A stretch of 64,000 nucleotides of DNA. Source: Sulfurimonas sp. HSL3-1. Lineage in GTDB: Bacteria; Campylobacterota; Campylobacteria; Campylobacterales; Sulfurimonadaceae. Within the stretch, counting starts at the first letter, position 1. Every line of letters starts with the position of its first letter. The notes under the pieces are model-generated. The model was given only the letters and a program-made list of their open reading frames with translations. It did no database searches and was not told the origin of the DNA. The stretch covers positions 434,001-498,000 of the forward strand of contig NZ_CP147920.1 in the NCBI RefSeq assembly GCF_039645995.1, in the 5' to 3' direction. The translations under genes and the position numbers were made by a program. Positions 4,885-11,563 of the stretch are shown here, one piece after another.

Positions 4885-5211
4885 ATGAAAAAGATGATGA
4901 TGGGTGTCGCAGCAGCGGCAGGTATCACTTCAGTTGCATCTGCAGCGGAACTGGCAGCTACTGATGCTCAGTTTATGTTTGGTGCAAGCAATGTAGATGC
5001 AGTTGCAATGACAGGTGCTGAAATGGTCGGAACACAAGGTCAACTGCTCGGTCTGACTATCCTTGATCCGGTTCTGAACATCGTTGGCAGCCTCCCGCTC
5101 GTTGGCCCGATCGTAACTGGTCTGCTCGATACTGTTGATGGTCTTCTCGGCGGTCTGCTCGGTGGTCTCCCGCTCGTTGGTAGCCTGCTGGGTGGCGGCC
5201 TCCTCGGCTAA
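4885..5211 (+). CDS. Small Sec-exported leader-cargo protein 1 (Gly/Leu-rich)
   Basis: This 108-residue protein was not matched to a named family. A Sec signal peptide (about residues 1-20, MKKMMMGVAAAAG...ASAA) is followed by a short leader, TDAQFMFG (26-33), and MTGAEMVGTQGQ (42-53). From residue 54 the sequence is almost only G, L, V, P, I, T and D, including SLPLVGPIVTGLL and GLLGGLLGGLPLVG. The 42-53 stretch has the spacing of a double-glycine leader (hydrophobic -12, E -8, M -7, G -2), but ends GQ rather than GG. The start at 4885 has AGGAG seven bases upstream; an in-frame ATG at 4837 lacks one. It shares its leader with the next gene. I infer a substrate of the C39 peptidase at 6943. 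Confidence 0.75.
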   Translation: MKKMMMGVAAAAGITSVASAAELAATDAQFMFGASNVDAVAMTGAEMVGTQGQLLGLTILDPVLNIVGSLPLVGPIVTGLLDTVDGLLGGLLGGLPLVGSLLGGGLLG

Positions 5212-5230
5212 CACACCCCTCTTACCCTTA

Positions 5231-5276
5231 CCCTCCCTTCCGGGAGGGGTTCTTCTCCCCTTTATTCCTTTTTTTT
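5231..5276 (+). terminator. Hairpin plus T run after small exported gene 1
   Basis: A perfect seven-base-pair stem (CCCTCCC/GGGAGGG, loop TTCC, 5231-5248) lies 20 bases after the stop. A T-rich stretch follows, with an eight-T run at 5269-5276. The T run is about 20 bases from the stem, so this is not a textbook intrinsic terminator. It could separate expression of the two small genes. Confidence 0.4.
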
Positions 5277-5315
5277 GAGACACCTCTACATCCAATCAGA
5301 CAAAGCCGTTATCAC

Positions 5316-5335
5316 AAATCATTTTGAAATGATTT
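5316..5335. promoter_or_regulatory. 20-base palindrome upstream of small exported gene 2
   Basis: The sequence AAATCATTTTGAAATGATTT is a nine-base perfect inverted repeat around a TG centre. It sits about 110 bases upstream of a possible promoter (TTAACA at 5417-5422, TATAAA at 5442-5447, spacing 19). It could be a dimeric regulator site. It does not match the Fur box, and no regulator gene adjoins. Confidence 0.35.
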
Positions 5336-5504
5336 AAAGAAAAAAGTTTTTGTTTTTCAATGTTTTAAAAGTGATTTTGATACAAAAAGCATATTTATTG
5401 ATATTTTGTTAGTTTTTTAACAAAACTTTAATGTGATAAGGTATAAAGTTTAGACAAGAACGTTAATTTAAACGCTTCAGGTATCACATCTAAAGGAGAA
5501 CAAG

Positions 5505-5909
5505 ATGAAAAAAGTGTTGGCAAGTGTTGCTATTGCAGGAATGATTACGGGCGTGAGCGCTGCAGATTTCGGTACGACAGATGCACAGTTTATGTTCGGT
5601 CAGGAAAGTGTCAATGTTGTAACAATGAGTGGTGCAGAAATGGCACAGACAGAAGGTCAACTGCTTGAAGTACTTGGTGCGCTCGGCGCGATCCCGATTG
5701 CCGGTCCGATCCTCACAGACCTGATCGCAAGCCTCAACCTCGGCGGGCTGCTTGGTCTCGTTCCTGCGGCACTGGATGCGGCCCTCCCGATTTCGGCTGA
5801 CCTGAGCCTCAACGTCGGTGGACTGCTGAGCATTGATACCGGTAGAGACCCGCTTACAATTGACTCCGGACTCCCGGCACTGGTCGGTGCAGTCGTCTCT
5901 TCACTGTAA
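5505..5909 (+). CDS. Small Sec-exported leader-cargo protein 2
   Basis: This 134-residue paralogue of the protein at 4885 is similar only in its first part. It has a Sec signal peptide (residues 1-20, MKKVLASVAIAGMITGVSAA), TDAQFMFG at 25-32, and MSGAEMAQTEGQ at 41-52, aligning residue for residue with MTGAEMVGTQGQ of its neighbour. The tail (53-134) is different: hydrophobic and Gly/Leu/Ala-rich (VLGALGAIPIAGPILTDLIA, LNLGGLLGLVPAALDAALPI) with a more polar end. A conserved leader with variable tail is typical of leader-cargo precursors. An AAAGGAG site lies six bases before the ATG. It precedes the outer-membrane protein and C39 peptidase on the same strand. Function unknown; the peptidase-substrate link is inference. 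Confidence 0.78.
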   Translation: MKKVLASVAIAGMITGVSAADFGTTDAQFMFGQESVNVVTMSGAEMAQTEGQLLEVLGALGAIPIAGPILTDLIASLNLGGLLGLVPAALDAALPISADLSLNVGGLLSIDTGRDPLTIDSGLPALVGAVVSSL

Positions 5910-5918
5910 GTTCCATAC

Positions 5919-5951
5919 GTGTGCAGGTATTTCCCTGCGCACACCCCTTTT
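5919..5951 (+). terminator. Stem-loop after small exported gene 2
   Basis: A nine-base-pair stem with one wobble pair (GTGTGCAGG with CCTGCGCAC, 5919-5942) is followed by CCCC, TTTT and further T-rich sequence. It lies 10 bases after the stop and about 60 bases before the outer-membrane protein gene. It may be a partial terminator that makes the small protein more abundant than downstream products. Confidence 0.5.
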
Positions 5952-6013
5952 CTGCTTTTACTTTTTAAGTTGAATCCCCCTAAAATCATGATGAAATTAC
6001 ACAAAGGTTATTT

Positions 6014-6943
6014 ATGTTCAACAAAAAAGCATTATTTGGCTTTTTAAGTGCGGCGACACTGTGCTCATCGCTGCTGTATGCGGACGGGCAGACCCCGTTG
6101 AAAGTAGAAGAGCTCCTTTCAAAGAAAAATGCGTTCAATGCCGACATCTCGCTCGCGTATTCCAATATCGATCAAAAGACGGCCATGAGTACGGTGGTGC
6201 CGGTATCGACGCTGCTCTCATTCATTTATATTCCGGCCTACGCGGGTGAACAGGTGCTCGACCAGGATGTCGTCGTGGCATCGCTGAACCTTAAATACGG
6301 TGTGACCGATTGGCTCGAACTGGTGATGTATGCCAACGGGCATAATACCTCCAGCCGCGTGCAGCTCGGCGCCGCCATTGCGAACCAGGCGGATACGGAT
6401 TTTGACCACGCCGGTATCGGGGCGACATTTAGGGTCAAGGATGAAGGGGTTTATCCTTCGCTGCTGGTGGGCGTGTCGACCAACGTCATCGGCCGCCTGA
6501 CCTTTACCGACCGCGATGTGGATGGCAACGTCATCGGGACGTCGAAGCAGGACAAGACCTTTGAATCGTTCAACGCTTACGCGCTCTCCTACTATACGGT
6601 CGATCCGGTGGTCTTCGTCTTCAAAGCGCAATACCAGTGGAGCCTGGAAGAGGACTACAAGGGTGACACGAACGACCGTCCGGACATTCTGGCGATCTCG
6701 CCGCAGGTCTATTTCGCGGTCAACCCCTACACCAACCTCAGCTGGGGGATCACCTACCGCTACCAGACGGAGCAGCGCTATAACGGCAAAGTGGAAACGA
6801 TCGCGGAGTCGTCCATCGGGTACAACATCGGTGTGAGCTACGAGATCTCGAGGGGGAACATCATCTCCCTGGACGCCAGCAACAACGAAACGGCCACTTA
6901 TAGCCAGAATACGATCAATCTCATCTTCTCAAAGCGGTTCTGA
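6014..6943 (+). CDS. Outer-membrane beta-barrel protein of the export cassette
   Basis: This 309-residue protein has a signal peptide (about 1-23, ending LLYA-DG) and then alternating amphipathic strands that end in a C-terminal phenylalanine (INLIFSKRF), the usual insertion signal for outer-membrane barrels. Strand-like stretches include VVASLNLKYGVTDWLELVMY and LAISPQVYFAVNPYTNLSWG. It looks like the MetA/phenol-degradation-type transporter barrels. In position it is like FapF or the Fil outer-membrane component, lying directly beside a C39 peptidase. I see no N-terminal coiled coil like that of FapF. Its stop overlaps the peptidase start (TGATG), so the two are translationally coupled. Transport of the small proteins is inference. 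Confidence 0.8.
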   Translation: MFNKKALFGFLSAATLCSSLLYADGQTPLKVEELLSKKNAFNADISLAYSNIDQKTAMSTVVPVSTLLSFIYIPAYAGEQVLDQDVVVASLNLKYGVTDWLELVMYANGHNTSSRVQLGAAIANQADTDFDHAGIGATFRVKDEGVYPSLLVGVSTNVIGRLTFTDRDVDGNVIGTSKQDKTFESFNAYALSYYTVDPVVFVFKAQYQWSLEEDYKGDTNDRPDILAISPQVYFAVNPYTNLSWGITYRYQTEQRYNGKVETIAESSIGYNIGVSYEISRGNIISLDASNNETATYSQNTINLIFSKRF

Positions 6944-7671
6944 TGAAACGGGCACTTCAGGCACTCTTACCGGCACTCGTGCTGTTCACGGCGGCGACAT
7001 CGGCCGAGGCCGCGCTTAACCCTGCCGGAAAAGAGGAAGTAAAAACCGCCATGCCGATCATCGAGCGGGAGTATACGGTACGGGTTCCGATGAAGAGCTG
7101 GAGCGAGCTGAAAGAGAAGGGGGTGGTGCGCCAGCGCTACGACTTCTCATGCGGGGCGGCGTCGATGGCGACGATCATGAACTTCTTCTACGATCAGAAC
7201 GTCACCGAAAACGGGATCGTACGATCGGTGCTGAACATGAAAGGGGTCGGAAGCGACGCCCATAAGCTGGAAAAGAGCGACTTCGCCCTCTCTTTCGCGG
7301 ACCTCGCCGATTACGGACAGACCATCGGCTTCCGGGGCGTCGGTGTCGCGATGGATATCGACGCGCTGCGTAAACTGCGCATTCCGGTCATCGTCTATGT
7401 CAAGATCCGGCGCTTCGAACACTTTACCGTCTTCAAAGGGATCCAGGGCGACTTCGTCTACCTGGCCGACCCGTCGTTCGGCAACATGAAGGTGAAAATG
7501 GCGAAGTTTCTCGAGATGTTTTACCAGCGCGAGGACCTGAAGCACCCCGGCAGGGTGCTGGCCTTCATTCCGGTGGACAAAGAGAAGGTCCAGCCCGACA
7601 GGAGCTTTATGACGGTTCCCGAATCCACCGACTACCTCTACCAGTACATCGAGAACAGGATCGACCACTAG
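6943..7671 (+). CDS. Periplasmic C39-family cysteine peptidase
   Basis: This 242-residue stand-alone peptidase has a signal peptide (about 1-23, ending TSAEA). The active site is visible: Q64 and C70 in QRYDFSCGAASMATIMNFF, H160 in RRFEHFTVFKGI, and D176 in YLADPSFGNMKV. This is the glutamine/Cys-His-Asp arrangement of C39 peptidases, which normally cut precursors after a double-glycine leader. Unlike bacteriocin exporters, it has no ABC transporter domains and is itself exported, so it would act in the periplasm. FapD and FilB are stand-alone C39 proteins in surface-fibre loci. The overlap with the barrel gene and the nearby GQ leaders suggest it processes the small exported proteins. Confidence 0.88.
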   Translation: MKRALQALLPALVLFTAATSAEAALNPAGKEEVKTAMPIIEREYTVRVPMKSWSELKEKGVVRQRYDFSCGAASMATIMNFFYDQNVTENGIVRSVLNMKGVGSDAHKLEKSDFALSFADLADYGQTIGFRGVGVAMDIDALRKLRIPVIVYVKIRRFEHFTVFKGIQGDFVYLADPSFGNMKVKMAKFLEMFYQREDLKHPGRVLAFIPVDKEKVQPDRSFMTVPESTDYLYQYIENRIDH

Positions 7672-7704: not shown

Positions 7705-8298
7705 TTAAAAGAGGAAGTTGAATCCGCCGTAGTAGCGGACGGAGGAGTCGTCCGTCGAGAGCTTGTTGTACACGGGGTAGTAATACTCGACGTCCTGCCA
7801 GGTACGCCACTGAAAATCGACGCCCCCCATCACCTCCAGCTGCGGGGCGATGCGAAAGATCAGCCCCATGCCGACTTTGAGACTGACCTCGCCGATGCTG
7901 TCGTCGTGGGGGTAGTAGTAGCTGTCAAGCTGCATCGAACCGCTGCCGATTCCCGCCTGGATAAAGGGGTAGAGGTTGGTATAGGTATCAAAGGTTTTGA
8001 TGACATCCAGCCCGAGCTCGTAGAGTTCGTCATTGGTATCGTCAAAGAGCGGCTCGTCGAAATACTCCCCCAACAGATACCCCTGCAGGCGCCAGCCGTT
8101 GTAGAGCACGGCCCCGAACTTCAGCGCGAACCCCTTGCTCCCTATCGACGGTCTTTCATGATAGCCGCCGGCTTCAAAATCGAATTTGTTTTCGCTGCCG
8201 AATAGGTTCATACCGAAATAGAGATCGGCCCGCTGCGCCCAGGCGTTGGCGGAGAGGGCACCCAGCAGCAGCGGGGTCAACAGGAGAGACTTACGCAT
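7705..8298 (-). CDS. Small outer-membrane beta-barrel protein, unknown role
   Basis: This 197-residue protein has a signal peptide (MRKSLLLTPLLLGALSANAWA) followed by alternating strands such as GFALKFGAVLYNGWRLQGYL and LEVMGGVDFQWRTW. It ends YYGGFNFLF with a C-terminal phenylalanine, as expected for an eight-stranded OprF/OmpA-type barrel without a peptidoglycan-binding domain. Two ATGs are adjacent; the second (8298) has an AAAGGA site at better spacing. It converges on the C39 peptidase gene. I cannot tell whether it belongs to that system or is an independent porin-like protein. Confidence 0.75.
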   Translation of the reverse strand: MRKSLLLTPLLLGALSANAWAQRADLYFGMNLFGSENKFDFEAGGYHERPSIGSKGFALKFGAVLYNGWRLQGYLLGEYFDEPLFDDTNDELYELGLDVIKTFDTYTNLYPFIQAGIGSGSMQLDSYYYPHDDSIGEVSLKVGMGLIFRIAPQLEVMGGVDFQWRTWQDVEYYYPVYNKLSTDDSSVRYYGGFNFLF

Positions 8299-8444
8299 CA
8301 TAATTCCTTTGTGAATGGTTTAATCGCATCTATTATTATTCATAGTTTACAGTAAACAAGCCATGGAAGGAAAGAAACGGTGGCGCCGCTGCTACGGTTT
8401 TGCTACGCAACAGCGTTACAATCTCTTCAAAAAAAGGAGGCGCA

Positions 8445-10600: not shown

Positions 10601-11563
10601 CTACATAGAGAATGTTGAAAGTTGGTAACCATAATCAATCATTTCATCTGGGTGAACAACAGGGAAATACGTTTCCAAAAAATTATTTAATTCATATGAG
10701 GCATTATCGCCAATTATACCAGTGTGCCCTATTATAAATCTTTGTGACAATGGATGGTAAAAACCTTGATAAAGATAGATACTGCCGTACTTTATATGTG
10801 GATGTGTTTGAAGGTATTTTGTAATTTCTTTTTTTAGATAGCGGTTGTCTAAATCCATACTATTAGCTGCCACTCTATGAGTCATATTGGTGGTTTCTAT
10901 CCAAAGAGAAGTGCTATTGCTTGCATAAGGTTTTTCGTTTTTTTCATTTATTTTAAAAAGTATTTTTTTTAACACGTCTTCATTTGTTGATGTTTTTCTT
11001 TCAAATACTACGCTTGTGCATTCTATGTATACTTTATTTCCATTATGAGTAATTTCAAAATCAGGACTTTCTTGTTTATTGAATGAAATATTTTTTTGGA
11101 TGAAATGAGCTATAGTATTTATTTCCATTCTCAATCCATAAAAATTGTTATCATATACTGATTTCTTCAAGGCTCTATTGTATTTTTTAAATAATACCTT
11201 GTCAAACTTTTTTATAGACTGCATATTAAGTGTTAACATATATAGCCGTCCATAATGTACATATGCATTTTCAATTGCTCCGAAAAAGAGATTCTTAGCA
11301 AACGAATCAAAAATTGTATTTATTATAGATTCCTCTCCACCATTAAATATATCTTTTCCAAATGTAGAAACCATCATTGATTTAAGGTGTAAAGCTGAAC
11401 TCATTTTTGGATTTAGTAAGTCTTTATACATTGGTTGCTTTCCTAAATAACTCAGATTAATTATACCCGGCAAACAAATGAATATAGTAATCATATGCCG
11501 TATGCTTCTGTCGTTGGAAAACGAAGGTGGTTCGAGTTGTTTAGAAAAATTGGTGTTCTGCAT
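10601..11563 (-). CDS. PD-(D/E)XK-like nuclease domain protein, unknown
   Basis: This 320-residue protein has strongly AT-biased codons unlike the surrounding chromosome. Residues about 145-185 contain LRMEINTIAHFIQK, then SPDFEITHNGNKVYIECTSV. The E, PD and ExxS/T-type pattern across two beta strands resembles the PD-(D/E)XK restriction-endonuclease fold. The usual lysine is replaced (ECT), so activity is uncertain. The rest is unrecognised. The start is unclear: ATG at 11563 has a weak ribosome site, and later ATGs at 11494 or 11431 are possible. Island position suggests a defence or mobile-element function, but this is inference. Confidence 0.55.
   Translation of the reverse strand: MQNTNFSKQLEPPSFSNDRSIRHMITIFICLPGIINLSYLGKQPMYKDLLNPKMSSALHLKSMMVSTFGKDIFNGGEESIINTIFDSFAKNLFFGAIENAYVHYGRLYMLTLNMQSIKKFDKVLFKKYNRALKKSVYDNNFYGLRMEINTIAHFIQKNISFNKQESPDFEITHNGNKVYIECTSVVFERKTSTNEDVLKKILFKINEKNEKPYASNSTSLWIETTNMTHRVAANSMDLDNRYLKKEITKYLQTHPHIKYGSIYLYQGFYHPLSQRFIIGHTGIIGDNASYELNNFLETYFPVVHPDEMIDYGYQLSTFSM

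Follow-up and report, generated by a model that had tools for sequence, protein, structure and literature searches.

We analysed 64,000 nt of DNA from Sulfurimonas sp. HSL3-1 (the whole stretch, in the following "the window") and propose that four of its genes encode a route by which two small precursor proteins, s1 and s2, are exported by Sec, processed by a stand-alone C39 peptidase in the periplasm, and released through a FapF-like outer-membrane barrel. We regard this route as likely. The sequence-level evidence comprises gene order, selection on the coding sequences, a leader motif, the catalytic residues of the peptidase, homology of the barrel to FapF, co-occurrence of the genes across genomes, and the concordance of leader types with C39 clades.

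The proposed steps are as follows. Sec would carry the precursors across the inner membrane, and the signal peptides would be removed. The periplasmic C39 peptidase would recognise the remaining leaders and cut after their G-Q pair, freeing two mature peptides, hydrophobic and 55 and 82 residues long. These would exit via the FapF-like barrel, which would be co-translated with the peptidase, and, judging from relatives, would most likely be membrane-active, bacteriocin-like or Nap-like, with the cell surface or neighbouring cells as their place of action. The cut site, the exit through the barrel, and the activity of the cargo are predicted steps.

The cassette and its gene products

The cassette, features within it, and a convergent neighbouring gene are located as follows:

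4885–5211, plus strand: s1, small Sec-exported precursor, 108 aa (ORF call, Ka/Ks)
5008–5043, plus strand: leader motif of s1, MTGAEMVGTQGQ, with M-12, E-8, M-7, T-4, G-2 and Q-1
5231–5263, plus strand: terminator-like hairpins 3′ of s1
5505–5909, plus strand: s2, second Sec-exported precursor, 134 aa (ORF call, Ka/Ks)
5625–5660, plus strand: leader motif of s2, MSGAEMAQTEGQ
6014–6943, plus strand: FapF-like outer-membrane beta-barrel, 309 aa (model, structure and profile searches)
6943–7671, plus strand: stand-alone Sec-exported C39 peptidase, 242 aa (Pfam, catalytic residues)
7132, 7150, 7420 and 7468, plus strand: codons of Q64, C70, H160 and D176 of the peptidase
7705–8301, minus strand: convergent small outer-membrane barrel, 198 aa, adjoining the cassette across the genus

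The gene order is kept in four species of the genus, and comparison with a congener (locus L032) yielded Ka/Ks values of 0.054 for s1, 0.078 for s2, 0.043 for the barrel, and 0.102 for the C39 gene. All four coding sequences are thus under strong purifying selection (Ka/Ks 0.04–0.10), and the conserved order together with the low values indicates that the four ORFs are real genes. Of five high-quality genomes of the genus, four contain the C39 gene and, along with it, both small genes. A sequence-only reading of the same DNA had placed the four genes identically and had noted the coupling of barrel and C39 peptidase by TGATG (6941–6945), in which the barrel stop overlaps the C39 start; the ORF calls, the order in four species, and the Ka/Ks values confirm both points. 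The order of the four genes as a cassette also holds, but s1 is probably encoded on a transcript of its own and not in one operon with s2, barrel and C39 peptidase, because it is followed by hairpins and surrounded by AT-rich spacers (23% and 32% GC vs 54–58% in the genes). The same reading had described s1 and s2 as having a common leader and different tails; the leader is indeed common, but the tails turned out to be homologous (~45% identity).

Elsewhere in the window, a 320-aa ORF (10601–11563, minus strand) without a Pfam match lies in a patch of 29–33% GC inside the 57% GC window and was probably acquired recently.

The peptidase matches Pfam PF03412 at 6e-15, and a profile of its family picks up PCAT1 and ComA through their C39 domains. 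Q64, C70, H160, and D176 are invariant in 33 C39 sequences. The genome encodes no PF03412 domain other than that of this stand-alone peptidase, and therefore no C39-ABC exporter is available to serve the leaders of s1 and s2. The FapD model NF058616 is matched with 97 bits (cut-off 330), which indicates a homologue but not an equivalog, and the FilB model with 82 bits over the catalytic domain, again too low for an equivalog (cut-off 475). Residues 47–227 are 37% identical (E 1e-28) to an unannotated stretch of N. gonorrhoeae, which may or may not be napP.

The structural model of the barrel (pLDDT 82.8) has FapF as its best Foldseek match (E 2.8e-12), and a structure alignment with FapF gave a Z of 24.7 over 245 residues at 2.5 Å, followed by a COG4313 channel (Z 23.5) and autotransporters (~21). 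When the barrel profile was compared with PDB sequences, FapF was the only match (2.2e-5). By these sequence and model comparisons, the barrel is a FapF homologue. It has the 12 strands of the FapF type, and the FapF coiled coil is absent, i.e. there are only about 20 residues between the signal peptide and the first strand (residue 41). The barrel gene directly adjoins the C39 gene, or overlaps with it, in the majority of loci.

A double-glycine leader behind a Sec signal

The Sec signals were assigned by visual inspection and a crude pattern. In s1, a signal peptide (about residues 1–20) is followed by a double-glycine-type leader up to residue 53 and the cargo at residues 54–108; the corresponding parts of s2 are a signal peptide of about residues 1–19, a leader up to residue 52, and the cargo at residues 53–134. 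Both post-signal leaders contain DAQFMF and M-S/T-G-A-E-M-x-x-T-x-G-Q. The pattern L-12, E-8, M-7, T-4, G-2 is the classic double-glycine leader of C39 substrates, which in s1 and s2 would be moved to the periplasm, as a signal peptide precedes it. C39 cleavage is predicted after Q53 in s1 and after Q52 in s2. The leader shared by the two proteins had been recognised earlier, but its double-glycine motif had gone unreported.

Relatives encoded near other C39 genes carry the leader region common to s1 and s2. Among 38 precursors, G-2 is present in all 38, E-8 in 36, M-7 in 35, L-12 in 32, and T-4 in 29. At position –1, 17 of the 38 have Glu and 6 have Gly. The Gln of s1 and s2 at this position, instead of Gly, argues against the proposed route. 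None of the 38 precursors belongs to a Pfam family, and s1 and s2 did not match any curated bacteriocin family among the Pfam and NCBIfam models. A match of s2 to TIGR04081 was rejected, as it covers only the signal peptide and is below the cut-off.

Two further types of leaders were found. Type II leaders (Campylobacter-like) end with LSxxEMxxVxGG, mostly followed by Tyr, and the third group (L052, L053) has SDSELEEISAQ or a close variant thereof. Type III leaders, with the pattern S/T-D-x-E/D-L-x-x-V/I-x-A/G-Q, adjoin C39 peptidases in another Campylobacterota family and in Deltaproteobacteria, and precede larger cargo (L053 8642–9034, L172 3510–4762, L159 2711–4871).

The motif was also compared with permuted motifs in three sets of signal-peptide ORFs near C39 genes. 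With a motif pattern that was adjusted after part of the data had been seen, 0 of 500 permutations per set reached the observed count. Of 64 loci, most of which belong to other phyla, 18 contain the motif, compared with a permuted mean of 0.4.

Next to the leader stands its distribution. In a sample of 298 genomes of the Campylobacterota class, in which the leader was detected by profiles, 63 genomes have both a C39 and a leader gene, 9 only the former, 11 only the latter, and 215 neither. Leader genes are thus present in 63 of 72 C39-positive vs 11 of 226 C39-negative genomes, counts that include related, non-independent genomes. Of the C39-positive genomes, 26 had served to build the leader profiles, which introduces circularity; without these 26, the hand-counted values are 37 of 46 vs 11 of 226. 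A leader gene is located within 5 kb of 66 of the 91 C39 copies, with a median distance of 1.6 kb. The periplasmic double-glycine cassette is widespread in Campylobacterota. The sequence-only reading had made its functional link depend on the peptidase not occurring widely without the small proteins, nor these without a C39 peptidase, and the 63 of 72 vs 11 of 226 genomes did not refute that link.

In the C39 tree, leader types I, II, and III occupy different branches, with two changes of type, the minimum possible, vs 11.3 upon shuffling. The 11 genomes with leader genes but without a detectable C39 gene, some of which are essentially complete, count against the route. A search for degraded C39 copies around leader genes of C39-negative genomes revealed one clear fragment (L209), so that most of these leader genes seem to be orphans. 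Some Helicobacteraceae and Campylobacteraceae have C39 genes that are interrupted or fragmentary (L209 and, in genome G180, L070 8010–8529). Together with the orphan double-glycine precursors, the fragmentary genes suggest that C39 has been lost repeatedly. On balance, the leader motif, the co-occurrence, and the homology of the barrel to FapF support the earlier view of a Sec-exported periplasmic C39 peptidase, coupled to the barrel, with s1 and s2 as its substrates.

Cargo and alternative explanations

Across relatives, one leader precedes very different tails, and in several loci (L040, L041, L042) adjoining precursors have a common leader and unlike cargo. In Helicobacteraceae and in other phyla, the precursor gene is often directly followed by a gene for a small protein with 2–4 predicted membrane helices or, alternatively, for a Sec-exported barrel-like protein of about 250 residues. 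This adjacency resembles toxin–immunity pairing. Examples of the barrel-like protein in Helicobacteraceae are L042 11331–12068, L048 6307–7071, L045, and L135; one that was scanned had neither a Pfam nor an NCBIfam match, and the protein is possibly a cargo-specific partner or immunity factor. None of the partner proteins tried belongs to a Pfam family, and one of eight has a name in NCBIfam. A precursor from Collimonas passes TIGR03949, a model for class IIb bacteriocins.

In L060 (8577–9872) and in the Campylobacter-type loci L061, L065, and L068, type II double-glycine precursors adjoin larger genes without signal peptides. The larger gene in L060 clearly belongs to the Cj0814 family (254.6 bits, cut-off 80), whose members are secreted in a flagellar-dependent manner, and that of L065 matched no family.

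In Acinetobacter (L202) and E. coli (L204), the genes for barrel, precursor, a tiny membrane protein, and peptidase form one unit on small plasmids. The plasmid-borne cassettes are:

L202: Acinetobacter sp. plasmid pTR11_4, 6.3 kb
L204, L221, L223: E. coli plasmids, 6.2–6.6 kb
L222: E. coli plasmid, 152 kb

Related DNA was found in 6 of 5,426 E. coli genomes and is plasmid-borne in all of them. The E. coli variants are identical at 49 of 51 leader positions vs 75 of 148 cargo positions.

The cargo of the window is acidic. That of s1 (55 residues) is Leu/Gly-rich, with 3 Asp, no Lys or Arg, and a net charge of about –3, and that of s2 (82 residues) has 7 acidic residues, 1 Arg, and a net charge of about –6. 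Among the genera sampled, this cargo is confined to the genus of the window, in which cargo and leader are both constrained (Ka/Ks relative to L032, about 0.08 for the cargo). An AlphaFold2 model of s2, based on four sequences, was discarded (pLDDT 37). Because it is acidic, Leu/Gly-rich, and slowly evolving, the cargo fits a bacteriocin less well, and it may have a structural or self-directed role. A bacteriocin-like role was accordingly graded somewhat below an even chance: the peptides are acidic instead of cationic and conserved instead of diversifying, and no gene for a small membrane or immunity-like protein was found beside s1 and s2 on the plus strand.

With the same machinery, the Leu/Gly-rich peptides could instead be structural and, like FapC in Fap, form fibres on the surface or a hydrophobic coat by self-assembly. 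The pairing of a FapF-like barrel with a FapD-like peptidase would suit such a cargo, as would its purifying selection within the genus, the lack of an immunity-like partner in the window, and the probably separate expression of s1. However, the Asn/Gln-rich repeats of FapB and FapC are missing (the two cargos have 1 and 2 Asn, respectively, and no Gln), both are short, and other systems with the same leader carry class II bacteriocin-like cargo, so that we consider a structural role rather unlikely. A little less probable still is an action on the producer itself, by autolysis or signalling, instead of on competitors. The gonococcal Naps are the closest functional precedent, as they promote autolysis in stationary phase, with no antimicrobial activity seen (PMC11798529), but they are cationic, whereas the cargo of s1 and s2 is acidic, and the absence of a small membrane or immunity-like ORF also speaks against this reading.

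The peptidase might also trim the barrel or another protein, with s1 and s2 remaining in the periplasm or outer membrane. FapE or FapF have been proposed as substrates of FapD (PMC5557850), and the barrel is linked to the C39 peptidase more tightly than either is to the precursors. The canonical leader motif, the co-occurrence and proximity of the genes, and the concordance of leader types with C39 clades make this improbable. That unrelated genes are neighbours merely by chance can be practically dismissed: the sampled genomes are related and their counts non-independent, but the gene set recurs across many distant genera and other phyla, and also on plasmids of 6 kb. Processing of s1 and s2 by the periplasmic peptidase, followed by exit through the barrel, is thus the reading that we prefer.

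Comparison with known systems

Class II microcins and bacteriocins are exported by C39-ABC transporters (PCAT). They share with the cassette a double-glycine-type leader and a homologous C39 domain, but the window encodes a stand-alone, Sec-exported peptidase and precursors with Sec signals, in a genome without a C39-ABC exporter. Of the Acinetobacter Fil system, FilB has a C39 domain homologous to the peptidase, and no counterparts of the other Fil genes were recognised.

FapD is a periplasmic C39 peptidase, the Cys of which is needed for FapC secretion (PMC5557850), and homologues of fapD and fapF lie together in five additional phyla (PMC6173800). The cassette resembles Fap in its Sec-exported periplasmic C39 peptidase and its homologous 12-stranded export barrel. 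In contrast to the fapABCDEF operon, no counterparts of FapA, FapB, FapC, or FapE were recognised (4.7–8.4 kb), the barrel has no N-terminal coiled coil, and the score with the FapD model is far below the cut-off. The earlier observation that the small proteins are unlike FapB and FapC was correct, as the cargo is almost free of Asn and devoid of Gln and thus has no Asn/Gln-rich amyloid repeats. A probable substrate motif is visible in the window, whereas FapD has only proposed substrates.

The gonococcal nap island, described in 2025, encodes the C39 peptidase NapP, the FapF homologue NapF, and the double-glycine peptides NapABC, for which processing in the periplasm has been proposed (PMC11798529). 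As in the window, a C39 peptidase, a FapF-homologous channel, and small peptides with double-glycine leaders are encoded together, and s1 and s2 have the full leader pattern including G-2. Differences are the G-Q end of the leader instead of GG, the acidic instead of small cationic cargo, and its length (55 and 82 residues vs 16–36 residues, as the Naps are described in PMC11798529). Moreover, no NapI-like immunity protein was recognised beside s1 and s2, and a signal peptide is not mentioned for the Naps in PMC11798529, whereas the Sec signals of s1 and s2 are evident.

Since defining features of each system are lacking, the cassette was assigned neither to Fap nor to Nap. It had been put forward as a candidate for an undescribed cassette, which is no longer tenable, as Fap (PMC6173800) and the nap island (PMC11798529) use the same parts; the cassette is a variant of the Fap/Nap kind and not a new category. 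So far, the route has been seen mainly in Pseudomonas (Fap) and Neisseria (Nap), and no description of the system in Campylobacterota was found in the open-access literature, the search of which did not extend to most subscription journals. New are the bipartite leader (Sec plus double-glycine), the breadth in Campylobacterota, and the pairing of cargo modules with small proteins of the membrane or outer membrane, which extends to 6-kb plasmids. Of these results, the substrate motif and the wide distribution of the system matter most. Because the adjoining genes show a probable recognition motif that is kept across phyla, the question of the substrates of FapD-type peptidases becomes testable. 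The results also indicate a large pool of bacteriocin-like peptides, which is unannotated because hardly any family model detects the precursors and because searches that require a C39-ABC exporter miss them. It seems an evenly balanced possibility that Gram-negatives have a third general double-glycine route, with a Sec signal plus double-glycine leader, a periplasmic C39 peptidase, and a FapF-like pore. Fap, Nap, and possibly Fil would be special cases of it, the window would be a member whose acidic Leu/Gly cargo is unusual, and many unannotated cargo–partner modules in Campylobacterota, other phyla, and small plasmids would belong to it.
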